A stretch of 64,000 nucleotides of DNA, taken from NCBI RefSeq assembly GCF_030864355.1, contig NC_083393.1, positions 1,612,001 to 1,676,000 on the forward strand, given 5' to 3'. Position numbers and translations under genes: made by a program. Under the pieces are notes generated by a model. It searched no databases. It was not told the origin of the DNA and saw nothing but the letters and a program-made list of their open reading frames with translations. The stretch comes from Cutaneotrichosporon cavernicola (Eukaryota; Basidiomycota; Tremellomycetes; Trichosporonales; Trichosporonaceae). Shown here piece after piece: positions 2,723 through 21,741 of the stretch; position 1 is the first letter of the stretch; every line of letters starts with the position of its first letter.

Positions 2723-4985
2723 TCATCCGTCAAAGGGCGACTTGGGCAGGCCGCGGACGCCAGCGTCATACTTGAACAGATGACCGCCCATGTCCGAGTC
2801 TCTACGCGTAGGCCGCAGGTCATAAGCGCTAGCGAGGTACAGGATATCGTTATTGGGACCTCCGAAAGTCGGGCACGCCATGTCCTTGGCCCCAAAGCGG
2901 ATGTCGGCGATGTGCGTGCCGTCCGACGCGTACTTCATGAGGCAGTACGTGCCCCACACTGTGATCCACAGGTTACCCTCGACGCTGCAAGTCAGTAAAG
3001 AAGGGGGAAGAGATACTCACTCGACGACCATGCCGTCCGGCTCACCGCCGAGGACGCTGCGGTCGATGAGGACGCGCTTGTTGGAGATCTTGCCCGAGGA
3101 GATATCAAAATTGTACGCGTATGTGAGGCCGCGCGGCGAGTCATTGACATACACTGGAGTTGTCAGCCCGGCGTCTCAACCAGAACCACTCACTCGTCTT
3201 GTTATCTGGGCTCCAAGCCACACCGTTACCACATGCAAAGTCCTCGTCCATGAGGTGCAGGCTTCCATCGGGGTCATACCGCCATAACCTTGCAAGGCAC
3301 TTTCTACCCGCAGGGATCTTTCCCGTACCGAGAGCGAGTGCCTCGATATCAATCTCGGTGATCCAGAATCGACCTGCTGGGTCGATACCACCATCGTTCA
3401 TGCGGAGAACTTGACGCTGAGCCTCAGGGATGATCTCCTTGAGCTTCTGCAGCGTGCCATCCTCGCTCAAGAACCCGACGCCCTGGTAGTACGCGCAGAT
3501 GTAGCCCGGCTTGTCCTTGCGGAAGCAGATGACAGACACTGAGTCACTGAGCTCGGTCGCGACTGGCTCGCCAACGGCGTCGCCAACGTCGTCGAGCTGC
3601 AGCACAAGGCGGAGCGGTGGCTCGGCCTCAAAGTCAACAAAGTGCAGCGTCTTGTCTGAAGCGCGGTACACCGGCGCCTCACCGAGTCTCATGGGCGGGG
3701 TCATGGTGATCCAGGGCTGCGCAGCACTACGATCCTCGCGAGGAACAGTGACCTCTGGTCCCTCGGGGTACATGGCCTCAAGCTCGCAGTCGGCAGCGTG
3801 CCGCCCAAACTGCTGCGCAATGTACACACACATGTCGCGGTTGTACCGCCGCGCAGCGTCCAGGACGCCGTCCATGTTCTGCACGGCGTGCGGGAGGCCT
3901 GGGTAGTGGCGGTGCACAACGTTCTTGCCCAGCGCGGCCAGGCGGTCGGCGTACGCGTCCCCCTCGCCGTGCAGGATGTCGAGCCCCGCAGTTGAGATGT
4001 AGTAGTCTGGTGCGGTGGCGCGCAAGACGCTGTCAGTGGCGAGGAGCGGCGAGTTGAGCGGGTTCGACCAGTTGGCCTTGTCAGGGAGGTACTGGTCGCG
4101 GTCTGGACGGTCAGTTCCCGATCTATGCAGCACAGCATGTAATGTACTCCTTTGCAGCACAGCAGGTAATGTACTCCTTTGCAGCACAGCATGTAATGTA
4201 CTCACACCACAGCATCTTGAGGGCCGGAAGCCCAGGTGCGTTCTCCAGCTTTTCCCATGAAGCAGACGTCTCCACGCTCAAAGTGTTATCACAAACAGGG
4301 ACACCGAGGGCGACGAACTGAAGTGGGATACCCTCCTGCCCCGCCCGTTGTGCCATGCACGCAGCGAGGTTTCCGCCCGAAGATGAGCCGCCAATAGCCA
4401 GGCGTTTAGTGTCCATACCGAGCTCGTCCGCATGGTCGTGGACATACTTGAGTGCTGTTGTTAACCTACCATTCCAAAACCAACTCACCATCCCAAGCGT
4501 CGTTGTGGCCCGCGGGAAAAGGATGCTCTGGCGCAAGCCGGTATCCAACAGCAACGACAGCGCAGCGTGAAGTCGTGGCCACGCGCGTGCAGAATGCGTT
4601 ATCGGCACCAAGCAGACCCATCACCATGCCGCCCCCATGGTACCAGATAAAAGCGGGGAGCGGGCTCTTGGCCGCGTGGGCTGGGGGATAAAAGATGCGA
4701 ATAGTGCAGGTGGTGAGATCGATGCTGACGAGTAAGCATGTCTGCATGCTGCTCGACTCACTCCCTCGACTTGCAGTCTGGCAAGAGGGTGTCGTTGCCA
4801 CCTGGCACGGTGGGCCGGTTCCTGATCGTGGGGTCCCATGGCACCTCGGTCGGATAGGGGAGGTTGGCGATGTGCTTGTCGTAGAATGCCTGTTATTGTT
4901 AGTCGCATTTTTGTGCACGACGCACGGCATACTGCGCGTCCGCGATGGGACGCAGCTTGGGGTCAAGTGGGTGCAGTATTGTCAT
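2723..4985 (-). CDS. alpha/beta-hydrolase fused to SMP-30/gluconolactonase-like domain
   Basis: Seven exons on the minus strand (4985-4926, 4889-4762, 4724-4489, 4454-4206, 4102-3194, 3153-3021, 2984-2723) join into 658 residues. The first half is a hormone-sensitive-lipase-type alpha/beta-hydrolase: oxyanion motif HGGG near residue 92, a nucleophile elbow GGSSSGG with Ser about 166 (GDSAGG is usual), and Asp about 266 and His about 296 as likely triad partners. From about residue 358 to the end is an SMP-30/gluconolactonase/LRE beta-propeller, with LGEAPVY carrying the usual metal-ligand Glu. One continuous frame spans the junction inside the 909-nt exon, so this is a true fusion, not two neighbours. 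Substrate is unknown; an esterase plus lactonase pair suggests cleavage of an ester followed by ring opening. Introns are 34-40 nt except one of 103 nt that contains a minisatellite. Confidence 0.88.
4129..4202. repeat. 27-bp minisatellite inside an intron
   Basis: About 2.7 copies of a 27-bp unit lie wholly inside the 103-nt intron 4103-4205 of the hydrolase-lactonase gene and start directly at its donor. The copies differ by one substitution. Because 27 is a multiple of three, each copy reads as nine codons without a stop if the intron is retained. Confidence 0.85.
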
Positions 4986-7091
4986 GATAGCAATGAGTTA
5001 GTGGAAAACAGTCAACTACATGCAGTTGTAGTGGGTGGGCAACACTCCAGGTTTGGATGGATGTCAGTCGGTTAATGACCTCCGGCCTTGATCCCCGATC
5101 CCCTTGGTTCAGGCAGATGATTACGTGATGCCGGCGGACGTGTGTGGCGTGTCAGGTTATAACATGTCCCGCCAACAACGGAGGAGGGGAGCGAGCGAGC
5201 GGACAGGTCGAGGGGTGGTGACTAGTTGAGTTGACCAACACCGGTGAGCATCTTGGACAGTGTCGACGAGTATGCATTGATTCTGATTTAGACGACAAGC
5301 TGCTCTTGAAGCGGCGAAAGCCACGATCCAGAAGCAAACCACGTGGATGAAATCAAACGCCGATAATCTGACGTCATATGTAATCTTTAATCTAAAGAGT
5401 TGTTCAGCAGCGCCTTCTCACCCTGCAAGGCGTGATCCCGCCCGCCTCCTTGCACCGCCTCACAGCCCGTCTTGCACAGCCCCATTGCTATGCCGTCGGA
5501 GTCTATCCTCGGCTATCAGAGCGATGATGATAATAGCCGCAGCCATCTACATATAAGGAACTTGGGAACACCGTTCTTAATGCCCCTGGCTGTCCATGAC
5601 GATTCGCCACCCTCTGGCCACTGCGCGAGATTTGCCACCCATCCTCCACATACCATCTGACACACCGATACTCATCAACTGACATTCGAGCCGTAAGCAG
5701 ATTACGATTCCTGTGGGCGCAGCAGAGGAGGGAGAGGTAGGTGTAGGGTAGGTACAGGTGGAGGGTAGGTACAGCTGGAGGGTAGGTACAGCTGGAGGGG
5801 GGAGGAACAGAAGAGAAAGAGAACGATGGGGATGAAAGTGCGCCCAGCTCCTCAGGCTCCTCAAATCGCATTCCTGACGGGCATTGTTGTTGCAGGGTAA
5901 CGTAACCGAACTATTCGAGCGCCAGTCATGTGCTGACGGATTCAAAGTACAAAGACGCCACATCTGTACGAACAGATACGATGCGAAAGCATTAGTGATA
6001 GGCAGGTGACTATCTAACATTCCTGTGTTTTTTGTCCGTGATTTATTGCCTCTTGGGAGCCGCGCCTGTGGGAGTCACCCAACTACCCATCCCCAGTTAC
6101 CCCATCCCCGACCTCAGCGTGCCTGTTCCTGACTTGTGTTGCATGAAGATAATAACCCTTCTCGCGTCAGTAACATTGGGCACACGTTCATCAACACGAC
6201 CCGCTTTGCTTGGCTTGGCCTCGCCTCAACCGTCCACGTCCATGTTATCCTTGCGCTTGAAGGGTGGTGGGTTCGATTGCGAGGCGGCGGATTCGATTGC
6301 GAGGTGCTGAATTCGACGAGTGAATACGCCCTCGGTGGCAAAAGCGCTGAGACGAGTGTACCACTTCGGAATTTCCGTAGACTCCCACGATCCCACAGCG
6401 ACTTATTCGCAACCTCTAAAAGGTTGTCACTGAACCCTCAATTCCCTCAGCGCCCATTTGCCTAGACTTTGACCTCGAGATCTGTGCCGCTTCTGGATTA
6501 TTGATTGGGTGGCAAATTTCACCTCCAGGGTGGGGATGGACGTAAACATGCTTAATGCCCCTTGGGCAACGCACTGTAGCTGCACCGAATCGACCCCGAC
6601 TGCTCTGTGACCCTGGCGTGCATCTGGCTGACATGAAGCGAATCTTGCGTCGTGTATCCACATTGTGCACATTTCGGTATTTCTCCGTATTTGGAGGGGA
6701 GAACCGTGGTTCCCAGCTCGGTCTCGGGCCGCGCGCCCTCACGCATTCTATCCAGCCAAGGACCAGAGTTGTGCGTCGAATTGTGCAAAGGGGTGACTTG
6801 CCTACAATCCTTAAAGCGCGGCGTCGGTCCAACTTGCCACCCATCTATCGACAAAGTGCGTTCACCTTTAGTCTGCACCACTTGCTCTCTGTATATGCCT
6901 GGCGGCATCGTTGTCGCTTCCTCCATTCGCCCAACTGTTCTGTCTTGGCCACCTCGGCCCATCTGTCGTTGTCGTGTATCTGCATATCCACCCAAGGTTA
7001 GCAACCCCAACGCCACCCTCAATACATTACTGGTCCGTCTCAGCACTCAACCCGAGACACACCACCCTTCCACCCAGGCTCCATCTCCGCC
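4986..7091. other. gene-free stretch with short tandem repeats
   Basis: No exon can be supported. It holds a 3 x 17-bp repeat (5751-5801) and a pair of near-identical 20-bp units around 6269-6308. A minus-strand frame at 6552-7046 contains a C-x2-C...H-x4-H pattern near its end but no other sign of being coding. The first few hundred bases are the likely promoter of the minus-strand hydrolase-lactonase gene, and the last few hundred that of the membrane-protein gene at 7092. Confidence 0.45.
5751..5801. repeat. 3 x 17-bp tandem repeat
   Basis: Three adjacent copies of a G-rich 17-bp unit start at 5751, 5768 and 5785, with one C/G difference in the first copy. Shorter GGTAGG-type relatives precede it. 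Confidence 0.8.
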
Positions 7092-9596: not shown

Positions 9597-9752
9597 CATG
9601 GTGTGCGTCGATGAACCTCGGACATGGTGTGCGTCGATGAACCTCGGACATGGTGTGCGTCGATGAACCTCGGACATGGTGTGCGTCGATGAACCTCGGA
9701 CATGGTGTGCGTCGATGAACCTCGGACATGGTGTGCGTCGATGAACCTCGGA
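9597..9752. repeat. 6 x 26-bp tandem repeat next to tRNA-Ile
   Basis: Six perfect head-to-tail copies of a 26-bp unit start at 9597, 9623, 9649, 9675, 9701 and 9727. The array begins only 15 bp after the tRNA-Ile gene. Perfect identity means recent expansion or active homogenisation. Confidence 0.95.
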
Positions 9753-10235
9753 CAAGTTTGGAGGTATTTTTGATCCGGGTACTAATGGGTATTGACCTAG
9801 TTCAAGAGAACCCAGTCTAATCGATCCATCACTGCGCCGGCAGCCACACCATCTCTCTTCTCGGTCCATGTGTCCTGGACGGACAGAGCGTGCAACCCCG
9901 CGTGCTCTCATTGGACCGTCGGACACACTTCACCTCCATGCGTAACCTGTAGTGCGAAAACCGTAGTGCGCACTGAGTCGACGAAGCTTTAAAGGAGGCA
10001 TAGCGCATCATGTTTCGTAGATAAAGATTGGGAACAATCTGCAGTATTGTTACACACTCTCGGATGACAAACTGCTTCACGTATGGCGCAAAACACGGAG
10101 TGAATACTTCGAGATACCATATCGCTAGATGATACATGTTTACCTACGTCTACACCGAGACCTCGCGCCTGCGCGAGACCGAACTATGAAGAGCACTCGT
10201 GAGACCTAATTATGAAGAGCACGCCCAACACCCAA
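9753..10235. other. gene-free stretch before lysozyme gene
   Basis: No exon seen. At 10176-10249 three imperfect copies of a roughly 24-bp unit sharing GAAGAGCAC run into the 3' end of the first lysozyme gene, and the last copy overlaps its stop codon. Confidence 0.5.
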
Positions 10236-10793
10236 CTACGAAGAGCACTGTGGGAATGCCTGTCGGCTTGACGCGGTTCGGAACAGGGCCAACTCGGCTG
10301 CTCGCCGTCTCCGCAACCCCGGCAGCTCTTTCGAGCTATCCTTCCCCGTCGTCCAATTGGGCAATTCGGCAGCGGCGACAACGTTGGGGTCTTCGCCGGC
10401 ATTGAGCCGCGCAATCAATGCGGAAGACGAGACGGCCTCACATCCCTCATTGAACGCCCAACTGGCCAGCGCGGCCCACTGGTTATCGCTTAATACGAGG
10501 TGTGAGCGCGCTGGCTCCAGCGCTTCACCAAGACACGAAGTCACGGCCGGCATATTGTTCTTGAGGAGCGTGCTGGCGGCGCGCTTGCTCAGTGGGAAGG
10601 CGAAGGGAACCTCGCGACACGACGGAGCCTCACAGGCGTGTCCGTACCCGACACTTGGGTGGCCGATGGGGTCTGTGGACGGGGCGGCGATAAAGCCCTC
10701 GTACTCTTTGATGAGGTCAAGACCCAGGATGTTGAGATGGGCACACGGCGCGGCTAGCGCGACCGAGATGAAGAAAAAGAGAGAAACCAGCAT
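10236..10793 (-). CDS. secreted GH24 lysozyme (muramidase)
   Basis: A single-exon gene encodes 185 residues. Residues 1-14 are a signal peptide ending ALAAP. The rest is a T4/lambdoid-type GH24 lysozyme: KEYEGF carries the likely catalytic Glu, followed by SVGYGHAC, the family's glycine-rich active-site turn, and the helix SDNQWAALASWAFNEGC. The family hydrolyses the beta-1,4 MurNAc-GlcNAc bond of peptidoglycan. Cysteines suggest disulfides in a secreted enzyme. It is a paralogue of the lysozyme at 11464-12353, on the same strand, but lacks that protein's SH3-like domain. Signal peptide and fungal context argue against a prophage remnant. Confidence 0.9.
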   Translation of the reverse strand: MLVSLFFFISVALAAPCAHLNILGLDLIKEYEGFIAAPSTDPIGHPSVGYGHACEAPSCREVPFAFPLSKRAASTLLKNNMPAVTSCLGEALEPARSHLVLSDNQWAALASWAFNEGCEAVSSSALIARLNAGEDPNVVAAAELPNWTTGKDSSKELPGLRRRRAAELALFRTASSRQAFPQCSS

Positions 10794-11463
10794 CTGGCGT
10801 CAGATGGACATATGTGTACTCACTGTAGAAGAATGAGAATGAGAGATAAAGTGATGGAGAGAGAAGGTTGACGCGCAGCGTCGAGTTGGAGAGAGTCGGA
10901 GAGAGTCGCCTGGACTCTGTCACGCCGAAAGGAACGGAGACGGGACTCGAACAGAGGATGATGAAGTGTTTGCAAGGTTAAAAGTCAAACCAACTGCTGT
11001 CCAGTCTGTCCAGCAGTGGTGTCTGTAACAGGGGTAATGGGGCCTGTCCTGTTTTGACAAGATGTGCACATTAAAGGTGGAACACGAGGGGGACAAGGGT
11101 AGAAGAGTGACATCAGTGTCGCAGGTACGAGTCTAGACTCGACTTTGTCAAACTATTGTGCCTCGAACAATTTGGAAGAGGTTGGATGATACGATTAAAA
11201 CTCGGCTTGGCAGAGCTTGTTTCGTTCCAGCTTCGGGAACCTGCCGTTAGCCCACCACGAGCAATCTTGCTTCAAGCTTTGGTGGATGTTGCCTGAGAGA
11301 CGGCTTTCTGCCCTTTCACAGATTGCTGACGGTACGTGTAGGACGTCGATAAGTAGCTTGATGGTATGGAATGATATTGGATCCATGGGGCAGTGTGAGG
11401 CACGGGGCTTGGCCAGGGTTGGATTCTTCAACGTAATGCATCTTTGCTTTGACATACAGAGCG
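10794..11463. other. promoter region of first lysozyme and gene-free spacer
   Basis: The 200 bp directly upstream of the lysozyme ATG are purine-rich (GAGA-type runs). A minus-strand open frame at 11195-11473 (92 codons) overlaps the end of the second lysozyme gene, but I see no motif and no splice link to it. Confidence 0.4.
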
Positions 11464-12353
11464 CTACGCGCATGTCGGGTAAGCCTCCTTACCACTGGGA
11501 GTGTTGAAGAGCGCGACCTCGGCGTCGCGCCGGCGCACTAGGCCCGGCAGGACTTCCCCACCGGCATGGACCCACTCCGGCAGCTCTTGACCCACAACAG
11601 TGGCCATATCCTCACCAGCGTTGATGCGGGAGATGAGCGTGCTATCGGCAGTCTGCCCGCAACCCATATTGTACACCCAGCTCGCGAGTGCCGCCCACTG
11701 GTTATCGTTGAGCGTCACGCTGCCCAGCATGTCACCGAGACATGATGTGTAGCGTGGCACATCGTCGTTCAAGAGCTGAGTCGCCGTCTCCTCAGTTAGG
11801 GGGAAGGGGTAGGGTACTTCGGAACAGCCCTCCGTCTGGCAGAGGTGGCCGTATCCGACGGTCGGAAGACCGATCGGGTCCGGCGCAGGGGCAGGAACGA
11901 AGCCTTCGAACTCTTTCAGGAGGGCGGTGCCCGCTTCGTTGAGGGTTGGGCAGGGTTCGGCGGTGGGGGTGGAAGGTGCGTCACATTTGGGTGCGACGTA
12001 TTCCGCCCGCCCAGTGGTTTGGACGTAGTAGTCGCTGGTGAAGCAGCCTGGTGTTAACGTAACGGGTATAAAAATCCAAGGACTCTGGGATTCAAGTACG
12101 TTGTTTGGAAGAGCACAAGTGGTCCATACTCACCATCGGTAGTCTTATCCCAGATTGTGTCGTCGTTGATGTTCTCCCCCTCGGTCTGGCACTCGAGCGT
12201 GACTTGATCGCCAGCGCTATACTGCTTGACAATGTCGTAGGATCTGCCCGGGCCCGTGCGGCAGTTGACGGCTTCCTTGATGTTGAACGGGCCAGCCGCC
12301 TGTGCGGGGGCAGCAGTGAGGGCGAGAGCGAGAGCGAGGAGGGGGGTGATCAT
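11464..12353 (-). CDS. secreted SH3-like domain plus GH24 lysozyme
   Basis: Two exons (12353-12134 and 12047-11464; 86-nt intron) give 267 residues. A signal peptide covers about residues 1-20. Residues 20-95 form a bacterial-type SH3 module (VNCRTGPGRSYD near the start, a typical SH3b turn), followed by a short Pro/Thr linker. The GH24 domain runs from about residue 115: KEFEGF with the catalytic Glu, TVGYGHLC, and the helix NDNQWAALASWVYNMGC. SH3-like modules bind cell wall, so this protein should target whole bacteria. It ends YPTCA, matching the YPTC/FPQC end of its neighbour. The gene is divergent from the UNC93-like transporter, sharing the 1.3-kb region 12354-13643. Confidence 0.92.
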
Positions 12354-13643
12354 GGCTGTGTAGTCTTTGTGAGTAAGAGTACGAGTGGGGATCAGTCACG
12401 AAGTAGCCCTATTTATCTTGTGCAGGATGACCCTGCATCACGACCGCAACGCGCCGGTCGTCTAGTCTCATTCCGAGGTTGAGCTTGAGCAATCACCGAC
12501 GCGTTGAAACGGTCAAGCTTAAAGCGATCACAGTTGAGCTTGATGAACGGGTGACAAGTTCAAACATGCTACAGGGGTGTATCAAGACGCGTAGAGGCAT
12601 TCCGACACAGTGGAGCGCCCGATTAGGGTTCGTCTAGAACCACATCCAAAGGGAAAGTGATTTAATAATGCCGGACGCGTCCAAAACAACATGCACGCCG
12701 TCCCTGAGGGCACGAACATGCCAGTGCATTCAACACCAATTTCGGACACATCACGTCGGACAGGAAGGCAACGCACAGTTACCCTTCCTCTGGGCGGTGT
12801 ATTTGCTCGAGGCCGGTTCCTGTCTAGGGCAGTGCACGCGGGTGACCGATGGCAAACAGCGTTTGGCCCTATGCAACTACTCTGCAGCTCTGTACATCGG
12901 CTACCCAACCCAGCCCTGGTTGCATGGCTGCAGAGGAGACTAGACTCTGGCAGCCCGACGGATGGGTTGTCTACCTCTCCACGTCGAGTATTACCACTGC
13001 AGGACGCGCTGTGTCCAGCTGGACGTAACGAGCTTGTCATAATTGTGCGGCTAGCAGCCACAACCTGCTCGTTGAGTGGCGAATCTGCCGAGGGAGATCG
13101 GTGGCATCCGCCTCCGCTGCTCCACAGGTGTGCGTAAGCATGGCCAGGTGTAGGTCGGATGTTGGCGCGGGCTCACCCAACGACGGCCAGCTTCTCCAGC
13201 ATACGCAAACACTAACACTGGTGACTAAAGATTCAGCTCGTTTTCAAAACTGTGACTCGTTCCATCTGCCCGCCGAGCCGAACAGCTGGCCACCTGTACC
13301 GAACTCGGAACTCGGACTACATCTCCTCCGCTATGCAAAACCCTGCCATCGTATATCTCTTGGCCCACTCGCCGATCTCGCCGTTGGATGAGGTACTGGG
13401 CTAGTTTTCCATTCCGGCCTGGTCGGGTGAGTCATCCAACCTTCGAAACAGGTTCGAGGTCCACGGAACATTGCGTTAGTCGGCCGCTTCGCCGAGCCCG
13501 CCGACGGCCCACCCATTCCTCGCCTCCATGTGCCTGGGCTCGGTCAACTTATGCGTCCCGCAACCAGCATAATGTCCATCGGACCATACAATACTTAAGC
13601 AGCGGTGCGGGGCACGACATCGACCCCGCAGCCAACAACCAAC
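12354..13643. promoter_or_regulatory. shared divergent promoter region, lysozyme 2 / transporter
   Basis: This spacer separates the minus-strand SH3-lysozyme from the plus-strand UNC93-like transporter and holds no supportable gene. At 12441-12460, about 90 bp upstream of the lysozyme ATG, a perfect 6-bp inverted repeat CGACCG-N8-CGGTCG resembles the paired CGG half-sites bound by Zn2Cys6 regulators. A GC-rich inverted stretch of CGG/CCG triplets lies at about 13479-13506. Regulatory use is inferred. Confidence 0.45.
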
Positions 13644-15137
13644 ATGACCACCACTCCCCCCACCCCCAACGAGGCCAAGCGCAGCATGTCTCTCGAGGCC
13701 CAGACCGACGACTTGGACAAGCCGCGCTGGTACCGCTTCGGCGTCAACAGCTGGAGCCAGATAACGCTCGTGAGCGTCATCTGCTTCTTCCTTCCAGGCA
13801 TGTACAATGCCATTTCGGGAATCGGTGGTTCGGGCCAACTCGACCCAACGATCGGGGCGAACGCGGCCGTCGCCCTCCTGTCCGTAGGAGCCGCCACGGG
13901 CCTTCTCGTCGGCCAGCCCATGTTCGATATTTTTGGCGTACGCTGCATCGCTATTGGCGGTTGGACTTATGCTCTCTATACCGGGTCGCTGCTTAACTAT
14001 AACCACAGGGCGAACGGCGCGTTCGTCATTGGTGCCGGAGCGATTCTTGGTCTCGGCGCGACGTTACTTTGGGTCACACAGGGCGCGATCATGCTCTCGT
14101 ACCCACTGCCTCACCAGAAAGGGCGGTCGATCGCATTCTTCTGGGTCATCTTCAACCTCGGCGGCGCGATCGGCTCGTTCATCTCCCTCGGGATCAACTT
14201 TAACCGCATCAAAGCTGGAACAGTTTCCGACTCGACATACATTGCCTTCATGGTCCTCATGCTGTTTGGTTGGGTACTGTGTTTCTTTCTTGTCCCACCA
14301 CACATGGTGCGGCGCACCGATGGCTCGCGAGCCGCGCCAGCCAAGGTCAAGTCGGACGGAAAGTGGTACCACAACTTTACGAAAAAGGCCAAGGACGAGA
14401 TGATCCATATCATCCAGCTCAAGGACGAGCCGCGCATCCTTTTCCTGATTCCCATGTGTTTTGCTGCCAATTGGTTCTACTCGTACCAGCAGAACATTGT
14501 CAATGGCGGCTCATTCACCCTTCGCGCGCGTTCCCTCAACTCGGCCCTGTACTGGGCAGCGCAGATGTTTGGCGGCATGGCAATTGGTCTCCTCCTCGAC
14601 ATGCCTTGGTTCACTCGCCCCAAGCGTGCTCTCTGCGGCTGGGTCTTTGTTTTTGTGACCGGAAACGTCATCATGGGCGGCGGCCTCGCCTACCAGAAGT
14701 GGTTCGACGCACAGGGCCGTAAGAACTTTATCGACTTTTCCGACGCAAAACTCTACGTCGGCCCATGCTGGCTGTATATTTGGTACGGTGCCCTCGACGC
14801 CTTCTGGCAGGGCTTCTCGTACTGGATGCTCGGCGCCCTCTGCAACACGCCAAAGGAGGCCGCTCGCTTCGTCGGTGTTTACAAGACAATGCAGTGCGTC
14901 GGAGGTGCCGTTGCTTTCCGCCTCACTGCCAACCACCTTGGCAGCATGAAGCAGTTCATCTCGAACTGGGCCATCATCGCTGGCGCCCTCATCGTCGCTC
15001 TTCCCGCTGTCCTGATGGTCACCGAGCCCACCGAGGCCGAGGCCAAGGGCCTCTTCCTTTCCGAAGACGACGACCGCCCGGGGGCCCGCAACAAGGAGGC
15101 CGCTGCGGTCCGCCGCCTCAGCACCGCCGCCGCTTAA
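13644..15137 (+). CDS. UNC93-like major facilitator transporter
   Basis: One exon of 497 residues from the first true ATG at 13644; the frame is open to 13605 but without an ATG. About eleven or twelve hydrophobic spans are visible. The stretch around residues 120-160, GAILGLGATLLWVTQGAIML, is characteristic of the fungal UNC93/DUF895 branch of the MFS. A hydrophilic central loop near residue 215-250 separates two six-span halves, and the tail is acidic then Ala-rich. Substrate is not known from the family. Its position, between secreted lysozymes and an amino-sugar kinase with a MurQ-type etherase, suggests uptake of a peptidoglycan-derived sugar or muropeptide. It is transcribed in the same direction as the kinase gene 640 bp downstream. 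Confidence 0.88.
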   Translation: MTTTPPTPNEAKRSMSLEAQTDDLDKPRWYRFGVNSWSQITLVSVICFFLPGMYNAISGIGGSGQLDPTIGANAAVALLSVGAATGLLVGQPMFDIFGVRCIAIGGWTYALYTGSLLNYNHRANGAFVIGAGAILGLGATLLWVTQGAIMLSYPLPHQKGRSIAFFWVIFNLGGAIGSFISLGINFNRIKAGTVSDSTYIAFMVLMLFGWVLCFFLVPPHMVRRTDGSRAAPAKVKSDGKWYHNFTKKAKDEMIHIIQLKDEPRILFLIPMCFAANWFYSYQQNIVNGGSFTLRARSLNSALYWAAQMFGGMAIGLLLDMPWFTRPKRALCGWVFVFVTGNVIMGGGLAYQKWFDAQGRKNFIDFSDAKLYVGPCWLYIWYGALDAFWQGFSYWMLGALCNTPKEAARFVGVYKTMQCVGGAVAFRLTANHLGSMKQFISNWAIIAGALIVALPAVLMVTEPTEAEAKGLFLSEDDDRPGARNKEAAAVRRLSTAAA

Positions 15138-15779
15138 CCGGGAAGAGAGATAGAGTAGGAAGAACGGGAGCTGGGACAGATAGTCAGCACGGAAGTAATG
15201 GAATGTATATCTTGGACTGGAACTGCCTCGTCGCAACCGGCTGTTGATAAGCAACAGCCGCCCAGGGAATTAGAGGTTGTGACCGGTTGTTTGCCGGTTG
15301 GAAGTGGCAAACGATGATGCCAGATCTATCCACTACACTGGCTGTGTTTCTCAATGTTGCAAGGAAGATACGGGTTAATATTTTGGTGTCAATGCGGGCT
15401 TGTGTCGTCTCACATCAGCCAACAGCCACATCAACAGCTGCCACATTCGTTGTCTGATGGTGTGTGGCGGTAGTGACCCACACAGTGTGATCGACGGATT
15501 TACACAACGAATGTGTCAGTCCTATCTGCCATTGTTGCATCAACCCCATAGCCCTACTCGAGGAAAGCCCTGATCGGCAGCTCAGACACCCGGCCTACCT
15601 CCATGTGTCCTTCGGCCTCTCCGTTGCACGCCAGACCGCGGGGAGTGCGGGTGGCGGAGAAGAACACCGGGCGGAATGTTCGGCGCTGCAGGCCATCCGG
15701 TCGGCCAGTCCACCGAACCCGGCCAAATTGCCGATCCCTGAGTCCAGCTTGGACAGACTATATCGCCGACGCCCGAGAT
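15138..15779. promoter_or_regulatory. transporter 3' region and kinase promoter
   Basis: No coding frame is supported. A perfect 12-bp inverted repeat has arms at 15442-15453 and 15504-15515, separated by 50 bp. CCGGTC occurs at 15697-15702, about 80 bp before the kinase ATG. The inverted repeat could be a regulator site or could form a transcript hairpin. Confidence 0.4.
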
Positions 15780-16826
15780 ATGACGCCCACCTCTAGCTCA
15801 ACCATGCCCTACCACCTCTGCATCGATGGCGGGGGCACCAAGACGAGCGCGTTCGTCGCGCACACTGGAACTGGACCGCGCACCGTTGTGGCGGTGGGCA
15901 ATGCCGGCCCGTCCAACTTGTGAGCCTCCCCATTCCAAGCTGACCACAGGACATTCGGGCTCGACGAATGCCTCGCCGCGACGCGGGAGGCCGTGCGCAA
16001 TGCCATAGAGGCGTTGCGTAAAGCCGACCCCAGTGCTCGGATCGCTTTCCCTTACGATGGCGTGCGTTTCGAAAGCGTCTGGGCAGCCTATGCGGGATGT
16101 ACGCGACAGAGCGACCGCGACGCGCTCCTTATCCCGCTCCAGGAGATGTTCGGGGACGTGCGGCTGACTGGCGACGGGGAACTCTTGACCGCTCCGGCAA
16201 TTGGCGGGCCGCCCCACCGTTTCGTCACTCTCATCTGTGGGACGGGGTCCCTAGCCTTGTTGTGGGACTACAACAAGAGGGCAGACCAGCTGGCACGCAG
16301 CGGTGGATGGGGTCCGCTACTAGATGACGCGGGGAGTGGATGGGCGTTGGGGAAGGAGGCCGTCAAGAGCGTGCTCACCTTCACGGCAAACAAGTGTGAC
16401 TTGAGAGAATGGCACCGCGACATCCTCGCGCATTTCGGTCTCCACCGCACTACTGGCGCAGACAGACTCATCGCCGCCAGCTCAACGTTGGATCCTGCGA
16501 AATCGCCATCCGAGGGAGATGCGCTGCGCAAGAAGCGTATTGCGGACTGTTCGCGGATCGTTGTCACGGCCGCAGAGGGGGGCGACGATGAGGCTCTCCG
16601 TCTCCTCGGCGTGGTTGCGGAGCAGGTTTGTTCAACCCTCGCACCATTGGTGGAGGTTGGGAGAGTGACAGAGAAGGAGACGATGATTGTCGTGGCGGGG
16701 GGACTGGGCCAGGTCCAAGTGTTTTGGAGACAGGTTGAGGACCGGTTCGCGAAGCGGGGTTGGCGGTTCCGGACGGTCAAGATGCCTGAGCCGGGGCGGA
16801 GCGGACTCGAGGCGCTGATTAAGTAG
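15780..16826 (+). CDS. BadF/BadG/BcrA-type amino-sugar kinase (GlcNAc/MurNAc kinase-like)
   Basis: Two exons, 15780-15919 and 15950-16826, separated by a 30-nt intron (GTGAGC...CACAG), give 338 residues; an in-frame ATG at 15804 is an alternative start. The fold is the ASKHA ATPase: phosphate-1 motif DGGGTKT near residue 17, the phosphate-2 motif GTGSLALLW, and GGWGPLLDDAGSGWALG, the signature shared by eukaryotic N-acetylglucosamine kinase and bacterial MurK. This family phosphorylates GlcNAc, and in bacteria MurNAc, at O6 with ATP. Next to a MurQ-type etherase the natural guess is MurNAc kinase producing MurNAc-6-phosphate. It has no signal peptide and should be cytosolic. It converges on the MurQ gene with a 319-bp gap. 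Confidence 0.88.
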
Positions 16827-17145
16827 TGTTGTACATGGAATTGGGATGAATTGTATTGTACATATTTGTTGCTGTGTGCGATCGCGTGCATTGGGTTTGA
16901 TAAAACTATCGTCTTGAGACCCTTGGGAGCGAGTGGGCGGGAGGTGGCAGTCCATAGGATACATATCATCCCAGAGTCTGTGGAGGGAGTAGAGTTGACA
17001 GGAACTTGATCGAGTCGCATTCTCGCATTCAGTAATCGGTACAGTGGCAGCCGCAGCCGGAACCATCCAGAAAAACACAGCCTGTCAATGTCCTAACCCG
17101 ATACAGTACATGTCCCTCTACAGATGTCTAGCATTTCCGAGTCAA
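16827..17145. other. convergent 3' region between kinase and MurQ
   Basis: A 319-bp spacer between two genes facing each other. It should hold both 3' untranslated regions; nothing else is evident. Confidence 0.5.
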
Positions 17146-18342
17146 CTAAGCTTCGGCCTCGAGGGCCTTCTTGAGCAGCCCATCTGCGGCCTCTAGTCGC
17201 GCCGTAGCCTCCTTGGGGGAGCAGCGCCACCGAGCCGCAACCATGCCCTTCTTGACGCTTCCGTCGCACGCGTCAATGAGCCTGTCGATGCCGTCGTCAT
17301 CTTCCAGGCCCACGGCAAGATGGACTTTCGCAGCGTATGGCTCGAGTACGGCTCTAAAGATCCCGCGGGCACGGTTGATGAGCTTGGCATTCGAGCGCTT
17401 AACGTCGACCATGAGGTTACCGTACGTTTTGCCCACGCGCAACTGGACCCCCGTGCTGATCATATTGAGTATCATCTTTTGCGCTGTGCCGCTCTTCATC
17501 CGCGTGCTTCCCGTAACGACCTCGGGGCCGACGGGACATTCGATCGCATCGACACAGTGAGCAGCCATGGCGGAGGGGGCAACACAACAGATACCAGCCG
17601 TGTAGACACCACGCGTGCGAGCCCACTCGAGCGCACCGAGGACATAAGGTGTGCGACCCGAAGCGGCGAGGCCGATGACCGAGTCGAGGTCCGGGGAAAG
17701 AGGGGGGGAAATTGCTTCGAGGTCTGACGCGCCGAGCTCGGGACTGTCTTCGGCGCCCTCGACCGCCTTCTGAATCGCGCGGTTACCGCCCGCGATCAAG
17801 CCGATCCACTGGCCGTATGGAGCCGAGAAAGTTGGCGGGATCTCGCTCGCATCGAGAATCCCCAGCCGCCCACTCGTCCCTGCGCCGACGTATACGACGC
17901 GGCCGCCGGAGCGGACCTTTGGTGCGAGGGCGTCGATAACCCGTGCAATTGTTGGGATACACCGCTGAACACTGAGCGCAACAGTCTGGTCCTGCTCATT
18001 GATCATTCCTGTCCATCAGCTATATTCTTGAGTAAACCCACCGCACATCTCCTCGGTATTCGCAATGTCGATGTCGCGGGTTTTGGCATTACGCCCCTCG
18101 GTCTGAAGTGCCGACAGGTCGATGAATGGCACGGGAGTGGTGTCGCCGCTCGGGGTTGGAGACGCGTATGAGTTGGCAAAGATGCCGTTGGGGCCATGCT
18201 TGATCGTTGCGAGAGACGCGTTCAACTTGGCGATGAGCTCGGGACGCGGAGGTGAGCCAGGGATGTGTGGCGCGTCAGTGTGCCCGTTGACGGACTTGAG
18301 CGGGAGAGTGGTGGCCGTGGGCATGGTGGCTGTGGGGCTCAT
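17146..18342 (-). CDS. murQ: N-acetylmuramic acid 6-phosphate etherase (MurQ family)
   Basis: Two exons (18342-18042 and 18008-17146; 33-nt intron) give 387 residues; an in-frame ATG at 18390 would add 16. The protein is the SIS-fold MurQ/GCKR family. GAGTSGRLGILDASE near residue 140 contains the phosphosugar-binding serine loop and the first conserved Glu. Then come GLIAGG and VEGAEDS with the second conserved Glu, and GSTRMKSGTAQKM. Full-length bacterial MurQ is about 300 residues; here about 85 extra, Pro/Thr-rich residues lie in front. The reaction is removal of the D-lactyl ether from MurNAc-6-phosphate to give GlcNAc-6-phosphate and D-lactate. Vertebrate GCKR is a double-SIS relative, but the single SIS unit and intact Glu residues fit an enzyme. 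MurNAc is a bacterial sugar, so this gene points to bacterial food or cargo. Confidence 0.92.
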
Positions 18343-18749
18343 GATGGGATGGGGAGAGACGATACGATCCGCTGGACAATTAAAGTACATTCGATGTTGG
18401 CGTCGGTGAGCCTGCCGACCTTGCTATCACCGGTCAGATTACGACAGGCACGATGTGGGAGTGGGGATTGTTGATCGGGGAAAGGGCCGAGTGCCGATGT
18501 CAACCATCTCCCATTTGTGTGTGGCGCAATGTATTTGTGGCTATACTCATAGAGTGAGAGTGTGGGGGAGACGATGACGCTGCAACTGGACAGCTGAAGC
18601 TTCAGAATGAGGGAGCGACTGTTGGTCAAGAGGTTCCTCGCCGTGATCACCACATTCCTCACCTGTGGCTTCTGCCCTGGGCAGCAGATGCGAGCACGAA
18701 ATTACACATATACATCACACGACTATACAACCTAACCTAACGCGTTGGT
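18343..18749. promoter_or_regulatory. MurQ promoter and regulator 3' region
   Basis: The spacer between two minus-strand genes. CCGGTC at 18430-18435 lies about 90 bp upstream of the preferred MurQ ATG. No coding frame is supported. Confidence 0.35.
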
Positions 18750-20578
18750 CTACTGCTGCACCCCCCATTGCTGCGCCCACTGCCCCTCGACATGCATGGG
18801 CGTGGAGAGATCACCGTGGGGCAGGCCCAGCACACCGCTCAGGTCGGCCCAGAAACTGTCGCTCCCCGTGTACGCCATGACAGTTGGCAAGTCCAGGTCG
18901 GGGATAGGCGTGAACACCACCTCTATGGGTGCCAGGACGCCATTCTCCTCATGCATCCGTTCCATGAGGCGGTGGAGGAGCTTGCCGCCAGACGTGAGGA
19001 GCATGTGGGCGAGCGAGACAAATTTGTCGTGGGCCCGGCGCACGAGGGGGTCTGGATCAGTTTCAAGTTTTACACAATTTAAGGGAGCTCACCGTCCTTG
19101 GGGAGGGCGAGTGTGGCGATGAGTGCGGAGTGAAGAAACAATTTGGGCCACAGGTGCAGCGAAGTGCTCCACTTGCCCACAACGAGGTTGAGCAGCTCGC
19201 GGCAACTCGTCATGTACTGCGCGGTATCGGGCTGCGCCGCCTGGTCGAGGTATCCATCCACGACGACCGATGCGACGCGGTAATACAGCGTCACGAGGTC
19301 AAGGAGAAACTCGCGCCCACTGCCTGTGGGCAGCTTGGCCGCCTCTGCATCTGGGGTAAGCGGGGTCCAACTAGAGCTCACTCTGAATCTCGTATAACCA
19401 TTTGGGGCGCCAGCGCTCCAAGTCGTCGCGGCAGCGCCGGAGTACCATGACTTCAGCATAAGTCAAAGGACTGCCGGCTTGGCCCATGAGGGCCGTCATG
19501 ACTAGGGAGCGTGCGCTGGTGATTGCGCGGTTGAGGTGGCCGAGCGAGTCGAACAGCTCGTTCAGTGCAGAGAGAAGGACGTGGCTCGCACTCCGGGCTG
19601 GAACACCGGGCGGCGGCGTCTCGGGAACGATTGGGACGGAGAGGTGAAGGATGCCATGCGACACGGTCGTCATCTCGATAAAGTCCCATACGCGTCGATC
19701 GCGGAAATCACCCCGGTCCGGTGTGGATGTCTCGACGAACGCGCCATACACTAGCCCGCTGGTGATCTCGTCGGCCTTCCAGAACCATGTACGTGCAATT
19801 CCAAGCCCGACAACGTCGTCCCACGTCTTCGGGACAGTCACGTAGAGGAGACGTACGAGGGCGCGCTGGAACAGCTCCTCCCATAGCTCGACGGGGGTTC
19901 GCAGTCGCCGGCCCGTCAACCGTTTGGCGGACGCAGTGACGACCGCCGTAAACAGGAGTGGGGAAGGGGTTGCGAGCTCTGTCGACGCCGTAAAACCATG
20001 GAAGATGGCCATGGAGTCGTAGAAACTGAACCCGCGTCAGCCACTTCGAGTAGATCCTCACTATTCCCACAACACCGCCGCGTCATCTATGCTCACGTCC
20101 AGTCGAGTTGGGCGTTCCAGCTCGGTCAGTGCGAGCTGGAGAATATCCCGCAACGTGGTGAGGTGTGCCGGAAGAGTCGCCGTGACTGTCGGCGCAGTGC
20201 TCGGCGGAGAGGGAGGGGAGGGAACGGCCGTGACCTTGGGCTCCTTCACACTTCCACTGCTCCTTGGCTCGAGCCGGCGGTGCAGCTCGTCGTTCTGTGC
20301 TTTGACGGCCTCAATCTCGGTACTCAGACTCTGTAGGCGCGCCTCGACGCTCTGCTGCCACCGCAGATCGTCTGTTAGGATGGCGGCATTTGCGCGCGGC
20401 CGGACGATACACTCCACCCCGTCGTCGCGACACCGGCTACACGGTGAGTCTGGCGTCCCGTCGCACTGGAATCAGCCATGCTGCCCATACGGCCCACCTT
20501 GAGCTTCTGGCGGCGACAGTGGAGACATGCGCTCGTGCGTTTCGTCTTTGGCGGTGGTGAACTGGACGCTCGGGGCAT
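18750..20578 (-). CDS. Zn2Cys6 fungal transcription factor
   Basis: Five exons (20578-20498, 20465-20062, 20025-19382, 19350-19093, 19051-18750) with introns of 31-41 nt give 562 residues. The N-terminus holds a binuclear zinc cluster: ACLHCRRQKLKC then CSRC and C, with spacing C-x2-C-x6-C-x7-C-x2-C-x6-C, rebuilt only when the 32-nt first intron is removed from between the third and earlier cysteines. A heptad-like segment after it (about residues 65-95) may dimerise. The rest resembles the fungal-specific regulatory region, including FYDSMAIFHGF and a Leu-rich C-terminal half. Nuclear DNA-binding regulator. It sits at the far side of the lysozyme-transporter-kinase-MurQ group and in the same direction as MurQ, which makes it the obvious pathway-specific regulator. 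Confidence 0.9.
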
Positions 20579-21012
20579 GGTGGCGCGAATGCAGTGTCAG
20601 AGATCAGCGGGGGGGATCGGGCAAATGGCCGGTCTTTATCTCTTGTGAGCGGTTACAAGTCACCCAAACCACTGGCCCGCACATTTATCACATTCCATCC
20701 CGCTCAGTGCGGGGTAGAGTTGTTCAGCCCTTGCCCCCACTTGAACACAACAAGGCGTGAGGGTCAGCCACCAGCTAATGTGATGAGATGAGATTAGATG
20801 CAGGAGCAAAAGCAATCGTCAGAATCCAGCTGGTTTAAGCCTGCGAGCCCTAGCCGGTATTCATGCATGTGGGACAGCAGTCGTGGCAGAAACAACTGCT
20901 CGCCAACATCTTCCATCGTGAAAGCGCATAGATCCACAAACTCTAGTGCATACCGCTACACAGGCCAGACTATTCTCACTCGCCCATCTCGCTGTCCACA
21001 TCCCTGGTCCCA
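20579..21012. promoter_or_regulatory. regulator promoter and SDR 3' region
   Basis: CCGGTC at 20629-20634 lies about 50 bp upstream of the regulator ATG, the same element seen before MurQ, the kinase and the SDR gene; autoregulation is possible. Nothing else stands out. Confidence 0.35.
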
Positions 21013-21741
21013 CTACACCGGCGCGACGCCCAGCGTCGTCCCGCCACACACATACATGACCTGGCCAGTGACGAACCCATTAGCCTCGTCGAGGAAGAAT
21101 GCCGCTGCGCGCGCCACGTCCTCTGGCGTCCCGAGGCGCTTACACACTGTCGAGTTGATGATGGCCTGCGTGGTGGGCGCACCTGGTGGATTCGAGCTCA
21201 TGAACAGTTCGGTGGCAATCGGCCCCGGAGCAACAGAGTTGACCGTGATGCCATGCACGCCGAGTTCCATAGCCAGCGTTCGCGCCATGCCAATCATACC
21301 GGCCTTGGTGGCCGAGTAGACGACGCGGTTCGGTTTACCGAGAGCAGCGCGCGAGGCGAGCATGACGATACGCCCGAATCCGGCTTCCTTCATTGCGGGA
21401 AGGGCGGCTTGGATGAAGATCAGGCTCGCTTTGAGGTGGAGGTTGCAGACAAAGTCGAGCGAGTCGAGAGTCGCACTCTCGGCTGTTCCAGGTCGCGTCG
21501 CGCCGGCGTTGTTGACTAGCCCAATGATGGCGTATTCGGACGCAAGACGGGCAGCAATTTCCTTGGTCTGCTGCTCGTCCGAGAGCTCGGCTTGGAAACA
21601 GACCATCCCGGAAGGGGGGAGGGAGGGCGGCTTCAGGTCTACATTGAGGACTGTGTGTCCTTGAGCGAGGAGGAGGGCCGCGATGGCCGCACCGATGCCG
21701 TTGCTCGCTCCCGTTACGAGGTAGGCGCGGGGCTTGGTCAT
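21013..21741 (-). CDS. short-chain dehydrogenase/reductase
   Basis: A single exon of 242 residues from the ATG at 21741; in-frame ATGs further out, up to 21840, would add a stretch without family similarity. It is a classical SDR: cofactor loop TGASNGIG near residue 9, NNAG near residue 80, catalytic Ser in MLASRA, and YSATK carrying the Tyr and Lys. The acidic residue after beta-2 (NVDLK) favours NAD(H). The closest family type is FabG-like 3-oxoacyl reductase or sugar/polyol dehydrogenase; substrate cannot be set from sequence. It borders the peptidoglycan-related genes and shares the CCGGTC element in its promoter, so it may belong to that group or simply flank it. Confidence 0.88.
   Translation of the reverse strand: MTKPRAYLVTGASNGIGAAIAALLLAQGHTVLNVDLKPPSLPPSGMVCFQAELSDEQQTKEIAARLASEYAIIGLVNNAGATRPGTAESATLDSLDFVCNLHLKASLIFIQAALPAMKEAGFGRIVMLASRAALGKPNRVVYSATKAGMIGMARTLAMELGVHGITVNSVAPGPIATELFMSSNPPGAPTTQAIINSTVCKRLGTPEDVARAAAFFLDEANGFVTGQVMYVCGGTTLGVAPV

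Follow-up and report, generated by a model that had tools for sequence, protein, structure and literature searches.

A predicted N-acetylmuramic acid salvage pair of kinase and MurQ-type etherase, found in many fungi, next to two GH24 muramidase genes in Cutaneotrichosporon cavernicola

Introduction

The bacterial reactions of the kinase MurK and the etherase MurQ on N-acetylmuramic acid (MurNAc) are established, and we know of no MurNAc synthesis by fungi. Here we analyse a window of 64,000 nucleotides from the basidiomycete yeast Cutaneotrichosporon cavernicola (contig NC_083393.1, positions 1,612,001 to 1,676,000; contig C1 below), in which a gene for a MurQ-type etherase lies beside one for a BadF/MurK-type kinase and close to two genes for GH24 muramidases. 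We consider it quite likely that the core of this locus is a MurNAc-salvage module of kinase and etherase that is common to many fungi and stands here beside two GH24 genes.

Parts of such a pathway have been described in other eukaryotes. Transcripts for an N-acetylglucosamine (GlcNAc) kinase and a MurNAc-6-phosphate etherase of the rumen ciliate Entodinium caudatum suggested use of MurNAc (PMC6925433), and murQ has been reported from ants in an article stating that murQ transfer was unreported earlier (PMC13320244). Trichomonas has acquired muramidases (PMC12612818); the word etherase does not occur in the excerpt of that article, and neither this excerpt nor that of PMC6448482 contains anything on a eukaryotic MurQ. 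In a study of a muramidase from Trichophaea saccata, loss of the SH3-like domain clearly lowered activity (PMC10394673). No paper on a fungal MurQ or a MurQ-kinase fusion was found in the open-licence PMC literature by titles and abstract starts.

Results

Positions 10236-21741 of the window hold seven genes, all intact, in the order GH24A(-), GH24B(-), MFS transporter(+), kinase(+), MurQ(-), Zn2Cys6 regulator(-) and SDR(-). A first-pass annotation had assigned these seven families from the letters of the sequence, and family profile scores together with intact gene models confirmed every one of them. Each model is closed by a single stop once predicted short GT-AG introns are spliced out, such introns being needed in four of the seven (GH24B, kinase, MurQ and regulator). 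The kinase and MurQ genes are convergent, with a gap of 319 bp:
15804..16826, plus strand: BadF/MurK-type amino-sugar kinase, intron 15920-15949 (PF01869, PDB entry 8zo3, tree and the predicted structure of the C. spelunceum relative P0123)
17146..18342, minus strand: MurQ-type MurNAc-6-phosphate etherase, intron 18009-18041 (TIGR00274, PDB entry 4s12 and trees)

The spliced MurQ protein of 387 residues scored 312.5 bits against TIGR00274, passing the equivalog cut-off of 302, and 76.7 bits against PF22645; it matched the PDB etherase 4s12 with 259.5 bits and carries an N-terminal extension of about 75 residues ahead of the domain. The motifs LDASEIPPT and VEGAED are present, so that both putative catalytic glutamates are kept; we take these two to correspond to Glu83 and Glu114, the catalytic residues of Escherichia coli MurQ. 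Both glutamates, in motifs of the LD(A/S)SE-PPT and E-x-x-E-D types, are retained in all 33 fungal sequences compared, with Talaromyces the one that reads LDSSE in place of LDASE, and among 88 bacterial sequences the strict first pattern was found in 71 and the slightly looser second in 87. Judged by its sequence, the protein is an etherase. Its homologue in C. oleaginosum shows 86% identity over 90% of the query.

Many fungal proteins of this family are labelled "glucokinase regulator family protein" or similarly in databases; the phrase does not occur among the open-licence PMC matches listed. MurQ and vertebrate GKRP are indeed homologous, and one might suppose that the kinase acts simply on GlcNAc and that the MurQ-like protein binds sugar phosphates as a regulator akin to GKRP, the more so as the fold of the kinase does not tell GlcNAc from MurNAc kinases (a comparison made with a predicted model of the C. 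spelunceum relative). Score, architecture and motif all disfavour this. Besides the TIGR00274 score and the glutamates kept throughout the fungal sequences, a fungal-led MurQ profile gave 392.8 bits to the bacterial etherase 4s12 against at most 137.1 bits for GKRP. The etherase motif is missing from the first SIS domain in both GKRP alignments displayed. Vertebrate-type GKRP has two SIS domains, whereas the window protein has one MurQ-like stretch with the full motif. We regard a GKRP-like role as highly improbable.

The kinase passed the PF01869 cut-off (36.2 bits against 31.5), and its nearest PDB sequence is the MurK entry 8zo3 (53 bits), which was also the joint best fold match, at about 23% identity, of the predicted structure of its C. 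spelunceum relative P0123. The motifs GGGTKT, RLTGDGE with its Asp, and CGTGS are present, and the Asp and GTG are invariant across 36 sequences; we assume for the glycine-rich loop, the Asp and the GTG(S) motif the roles that they have in the family. MurNAc is the inferred substrate. The kinases of this genus read DDAGSG, against GDEGSG or a similar motif in many others. The idea that this change makes room for the lactyl group was given up, since fungal kinases carry E, D, G, A, K or R at the Glu position.

Removal of the 30-base intron 15920-15949 gives a kinase frame that resembles the C. spelunceum model P0123 and agrees with CcaverHIS641_0106050 except for a stretch absent from that gene model. 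In the public kinase models P0121 (C. cavernicola) and P0122 (strain HIS471) the stretch after the glycine-rich loop is dropped or garbled. A second BadF kinase, a long-branched paralogue, lies at positions 4997-6025 of the stretch C6:460001-470000; it was the sole BadF match of the genome scan and is a candidate GlcNAc kinase by sequence.

Profile scans of the genome (20.2 Mb, 8 contigs) were run exon by exon, and all counts from them are lower bounds. The BadF scan overlooked the window kinase, the SIS_2 scan overlooked MurQ with 0 matches genome-wide, and in the TIGR00274 scan MurQ reached only 296.6 bits, below the cut-off. One etherase gene was found in this way, a second match being partial at 22 bits.

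The combination of MurQ and kinase is not peculiar to C. cavernicola. Among the best 120 of 8000 MurQ matches, 75 are proteins of 600-700 residues in which MurQ and the BadF domain PF01869 are joined in one chain, and the other 45 are without PF01869. The fusion carriers listed include Aspergillus, Penicillium, Talaromyces, Xylaria, Cladophialophora, Pseudogymnoascus, Cordyceps and the mushroom Leucocoprinus; kinase-less MurQ occurs among the matches listed in Cutaneotrichosporon, Naematelia, Kockovaella, several Fusarium, Trichomonascus, Marasmius and Moniliophthora. The C. spelunceum kinase and MurQ bear the consecutive locus tags 0112550 and 0112560, tags being assumed to follow the chromosome in steps of ten. 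The fusion is strong evidence for joint action of kinase and etherase, and it is found well outside C. cavernicola.

Of the 80 best bacterial murQ loci (from at least 591), 15 have an open reading frame for a BadF kinase (E<1e-20) in the flank retrieved, always on the murQ strand, and 65 have none there; the flanks measure up to 4 kb, some being shorter. In a sixteenth locus (L046) the kinase profile matched at 6e-5 in a frame overlapping murQ itself, and this was not counted. The MurQ match P0005 and the kinase match P0125 presumably come from the same metagenome contig of 7344 bases. The metagenome protein P0118 (509 aa) is another kinase-etherase fusion, in which MurQ-type domains are joined to an AnmK domain (PF03702); its MurQ part clusters with bacterial sequences.

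The fungal proteins of both families form single clades. A first MurQ tree comprised 121 sequences, namely 32 fungal and 8 bacterial ones hand-picked from the 120 matches, the window MurQ and the 80 bacterial loci; P0004, P0026 and P0068 were assigned as fungal, and P0064, P0090, P0111, P0112, P0118 and P0119 as bacterial, by neighbours and domains. In a careful tree of 89 of the 121, the 33 fungal sequences made up one clade against 56 bacterial ones (support 100/100, and 200/200 bootstrap trees), the root not being inferred. The quick MurQ tree placed 18 sequences beside the fungi at 99, mostly from Chloroflexota and Planctomycetota, with two from Acidobacteriota and one from Armatimonadota. 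This grouping was weak in the careful tree, where the node nearest the fungi had 63/51 and the two Acidobacteriota sequences were placed elsewhere, and we claim no donor phylum. In the kinase tree (55 sequences, nine of them long-branched, including the C6 paralogue; all 41 kinase matches were listed) the fused and free fungal kinases and the C6 paralogue fell into one clade of 28 sequences with support 100/99.

Recent transfer or contamination is disfavoured. GC content at third codon positions is 0.71-0.76 in the seven genes, against values of 0.72 and 0.73 for two frames nearby, introns interrupt four of the seven models, and homologues of GH24B, kinase and MurQ are present in other Cutaneotrichosporon species.

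The two muramidase genes lie within 7 kb of the sole MurQ gene found in the genome:
10236..10793, minus strand: GH24A, GH24 muramidase without an SH3 domain, N-terminus signal-like by eye, motif KEYEGF (PF00959 and alignment)
11464..12353, minus strand: GH24B, SH3-like plus GH24 muramidase (8b2s; 100% identity over its whole length to CcaverHIS002_0106040)

GH24A, with a GH24 domain only, scored 92.7 bits against PF00959 and GH24B 127.5 bits. The latter matched the muramidase entry 8b2s with 305.7 bits over residues 25-265, with an N-terminal SH3-like wall-binding domain, and has the motif KEFEGF; its intron was picked from six candidates and confirmed by identity to P0162. We take the Glu of the KE(F/Y)EGF motif to be catalytic, by its role in T4 lysozyme. 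Three GH24 genes were found genome-wide. The third, at positions 4659-5746 of the stretch C4:402001-412000, includes an SH3 exon but shows KTHAPF instead of KEFEGF, with the motif Glu lost, so that among the three only the window pair retains it. Of the two GH24 matches listed for C. spelunceum, one (P0180) reads KEFVGF.

A perfect tandem repeat (9597-9754, period 26, 6.1 copies) borders the gene group on its left, and a weaker 26-base array (10174-10249) extends into the end of GH24A.

Other genes that a MurNAc route would need were sought in the same genome scans. A nagA-like gene at C5:1591307-1592515 matched in two segments scoring 165 and 37 bits, below the cut-off of 225.65, and stands head to head with a nagB-like gene at C5:1593856-1594212 (32.7 bits) within the stretch C5:1586001-1596000. 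Judged from sequence, they are probably the pair with which this yeast catabolises GlcNAc-6-phosphate. Stronger matches to PF01182 lie at C5:1239026 and C1:3024763, a family that also includes other sugar-phosphate enzymes. GH20 matched at two places on C1, and GH25 was not found in the scan.

The remaining features are three further genes and two promoter elements:
13644..15137, plus strand: MFS/UNC-93-like membrane transporter (PF07690 37.8 bits; PF05978 33.5 bits, cut-off 22.9)
18750..20578, minus strand: Zn2Cys6 regulator, 562 aa, four short introns (PF00172 Zn_clus 34.1 bits, cut-off 21)
21013..21741, minus strand: SDR oxidoreductase (PF13561 151.3 bits)
13158..13167 (plus strand, transporter promoter), 18393-18402 (plus strand, MurQ promoter) and 20901-20910 (minus strand, regulator promoter): the 10-mer GATGTTGGCG, by sequence search
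15443..15514, no strand assigned: inverted repeat ACATTCGTTGT / ACAACGAATGT in the kinase promoter, single copy in the window

The transporter had no PDB sequence match, and UNC-93-like genes occur at three further places in the genome. The SDR, which gave no NCBIfam match over its own cut-off among the best 25 of 223, is probably a bystander. Transporter, regulator and SDR are tied to the pathway by position only. GATGTTGGCG is the only 10-mer common to three of the seven promoters, and the window holds no fourth copy; the kinase, GH24 and SDR promoters do not contain it. Three of 100 Markov-shuffled promoter sets also gave a 10-mer common to at least three, which makes this a weak signal.

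Discussion

Our results suggest a route in which the two core enzymes act on a sugar released outside the cell. The GH24 muramidases would cut peptidoglycan extracellularly, as their family suggests; activity is published for the T. saccata homologue. Glucosaminidases, for which the GH20 genes elsewhere in the genome are candidates, together with an amidase would release MurNAc. Uptake would require a transporter, a candidate being the MFS protein encoded nearby. In the cell the BadF kinase would phosphorylate MurNAc and MurQ would then cleave the lactyl ether to give GlcNAc-6-phosphate and D-lactate, two steps suggested by family and by the fusion in other fungi, and the products of the nagA- and nagB-like genes on a different contig may lead on to fructose-6-phosphate. 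Kinase and etherase would be one functional unit and the lysozymes their neighbours in C. cavernicola.

Two observations weigh against this scheme. Amidase_2, NlpC/P60 and Amidase_3 were not found in the exon-wise genome scans, which can overlook genes, and peptide removal is the remaining gap in the route. Moreover, a GH24B-type gene beside MurQ was not found in C. spelunceum, where the two GH24 matches listed (69 and 72% identity to GH24B) carry the tags 0100950 and 0108540 and MurQ carries 0112560. This comparison covers GH24B-type genes among the best 120 of 437 matches, GH24A-type ones being expected to rank below these. The linkage of GH24 and MurQ is not general in the genus because the C. 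spelunceum GH24B-type tags are far from MurQ, and the first-pass expectation that lysozyme-MurQ synteny would hold in relatives failed, for the matches listed. The lysozymes could then be antibacterial or stand-alone enzymes that came to lie beside the kinase-MurQ pair by chance. The unlinked C. spelunceum genes favour this, as does the presence of GH24 homologues in many fungi among the matches listed; the closeness of two of the three GH24 genes to the only MurQ found in 20 Mb speaks against it. We would put such an accident of position at slightly under an even chance, and it is compatible with a salvage role for the pair.

A wider form of the salvage reading takes all seven genes as one co-regulated, peptidoglycan-eating cluster under the Zn2Cys6 regulator. 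Seven fitting families lie inside 11.5 kb, both GH24 genes with an intact motif Glu are among them, and GATGTTGGCG occurs in the window solely at the transporter, MurQ and regulator promoters. On the other hand this 10-mer is missing from the other promoters and has its like among the shuffled sets, the regulator and SDR belong to generic families, UNC-93-like genes exist elsewhere, and the listed C. spelunceum GH24 genes are hundreds of tags away from MurQ. We think the wider form unlikely. Co-regulation of the seven genes is unproven on these sequences; of the control by the neighbouring regulator that had been proposed at first there is its position and one weak 10-mer in three promoters. 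The proposal of a single catabolic route fared better in part: the kinase-then-MurQ step is supported because the two are fused in 75 of 120 matches, bear consecutive tags in C. spelunceum, and nagA/nagB-like genes are present in the genome; a conserved seven-gene cluster did not stand. Our interpretation of the salvage module is narrowed from seven genes to kinase and etherase, and widened from one yeast to many fungi.

From an evolutionary point of view it is possible, if rather doubtful as a whole, that the MurNAc pathway is of bacterial origin, was gained once in an ancient event, became fused to a single bifunctional enzyme in many Ascomycota and serves feeding on bacterial walls, and that in C. 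cavernicola muramidases, a transporter and a regulator were added to it, giving a eukaryotic cluster for peptidoglycan-eating.

If the salvage reading is correct, many fungi would be able to degrade MurNAc, a sugar that marks bacteria, and fungal feeding on dead soil bacteria would have an enzymatic basis. The glucokinase regulator name on many such proteins would need correcting. C. oleaginosum, which bears MurQ and is described as genetically accessible (PMC5657120), offers a host for deletions.

The locus can be set against several known systems. The GlcNAc catabolic cluster of Trichoderma reesei (PMC4950302) likewise groups genes for amino-sugar catabolism in a fungus, and its accessible text contains none of the terms muram, peptidoglycan, BadF, etherase, lysozyme or UNC93; in C. 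cavernicola the nagA/nagB-like genes lie on a contig other than that of kinase and MurQ. Entodinium caudatum and ants (PMC6925433, PMC13320244) combine a eukaryotic MurNAc-6-phosphate etherase with lysozymes, as here, but these hosts are not fungi and the available excerpts mention no kinase-etherase pair or fusion. The SH3-GH24 muramidase of T. saccata (8b2s; PMC10394673) has the same two domains as GH24B at about 55% identity, whereas GH24B adjoins a kinase-MurQ pair and GH24A is without the SH3 domain. MurK, the MurNAc/GlcNAc kinase of Clostridium acetobutylicum (8zo3), shares the BadF family with the window kinase and is its best PDB match; the difference lies in the low identity of the C. 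spelunceum relative, given above, and in the DDAGSG of Cutaneotrichosporon. Bacterial MurQ (TIGR00274; PDB 4s12, 4lzj/1nri) resembles the window protein in family score, both glutamates and whole-domain alignment, while the fungal gene has an intron, an N-terminal extension and a clade of its own, and many fungi have it joined to a kinase. What is new here, relative to these systems, is the fungal MurQ-BadF fusions and the single fungal clades of both MurQ and kinase.

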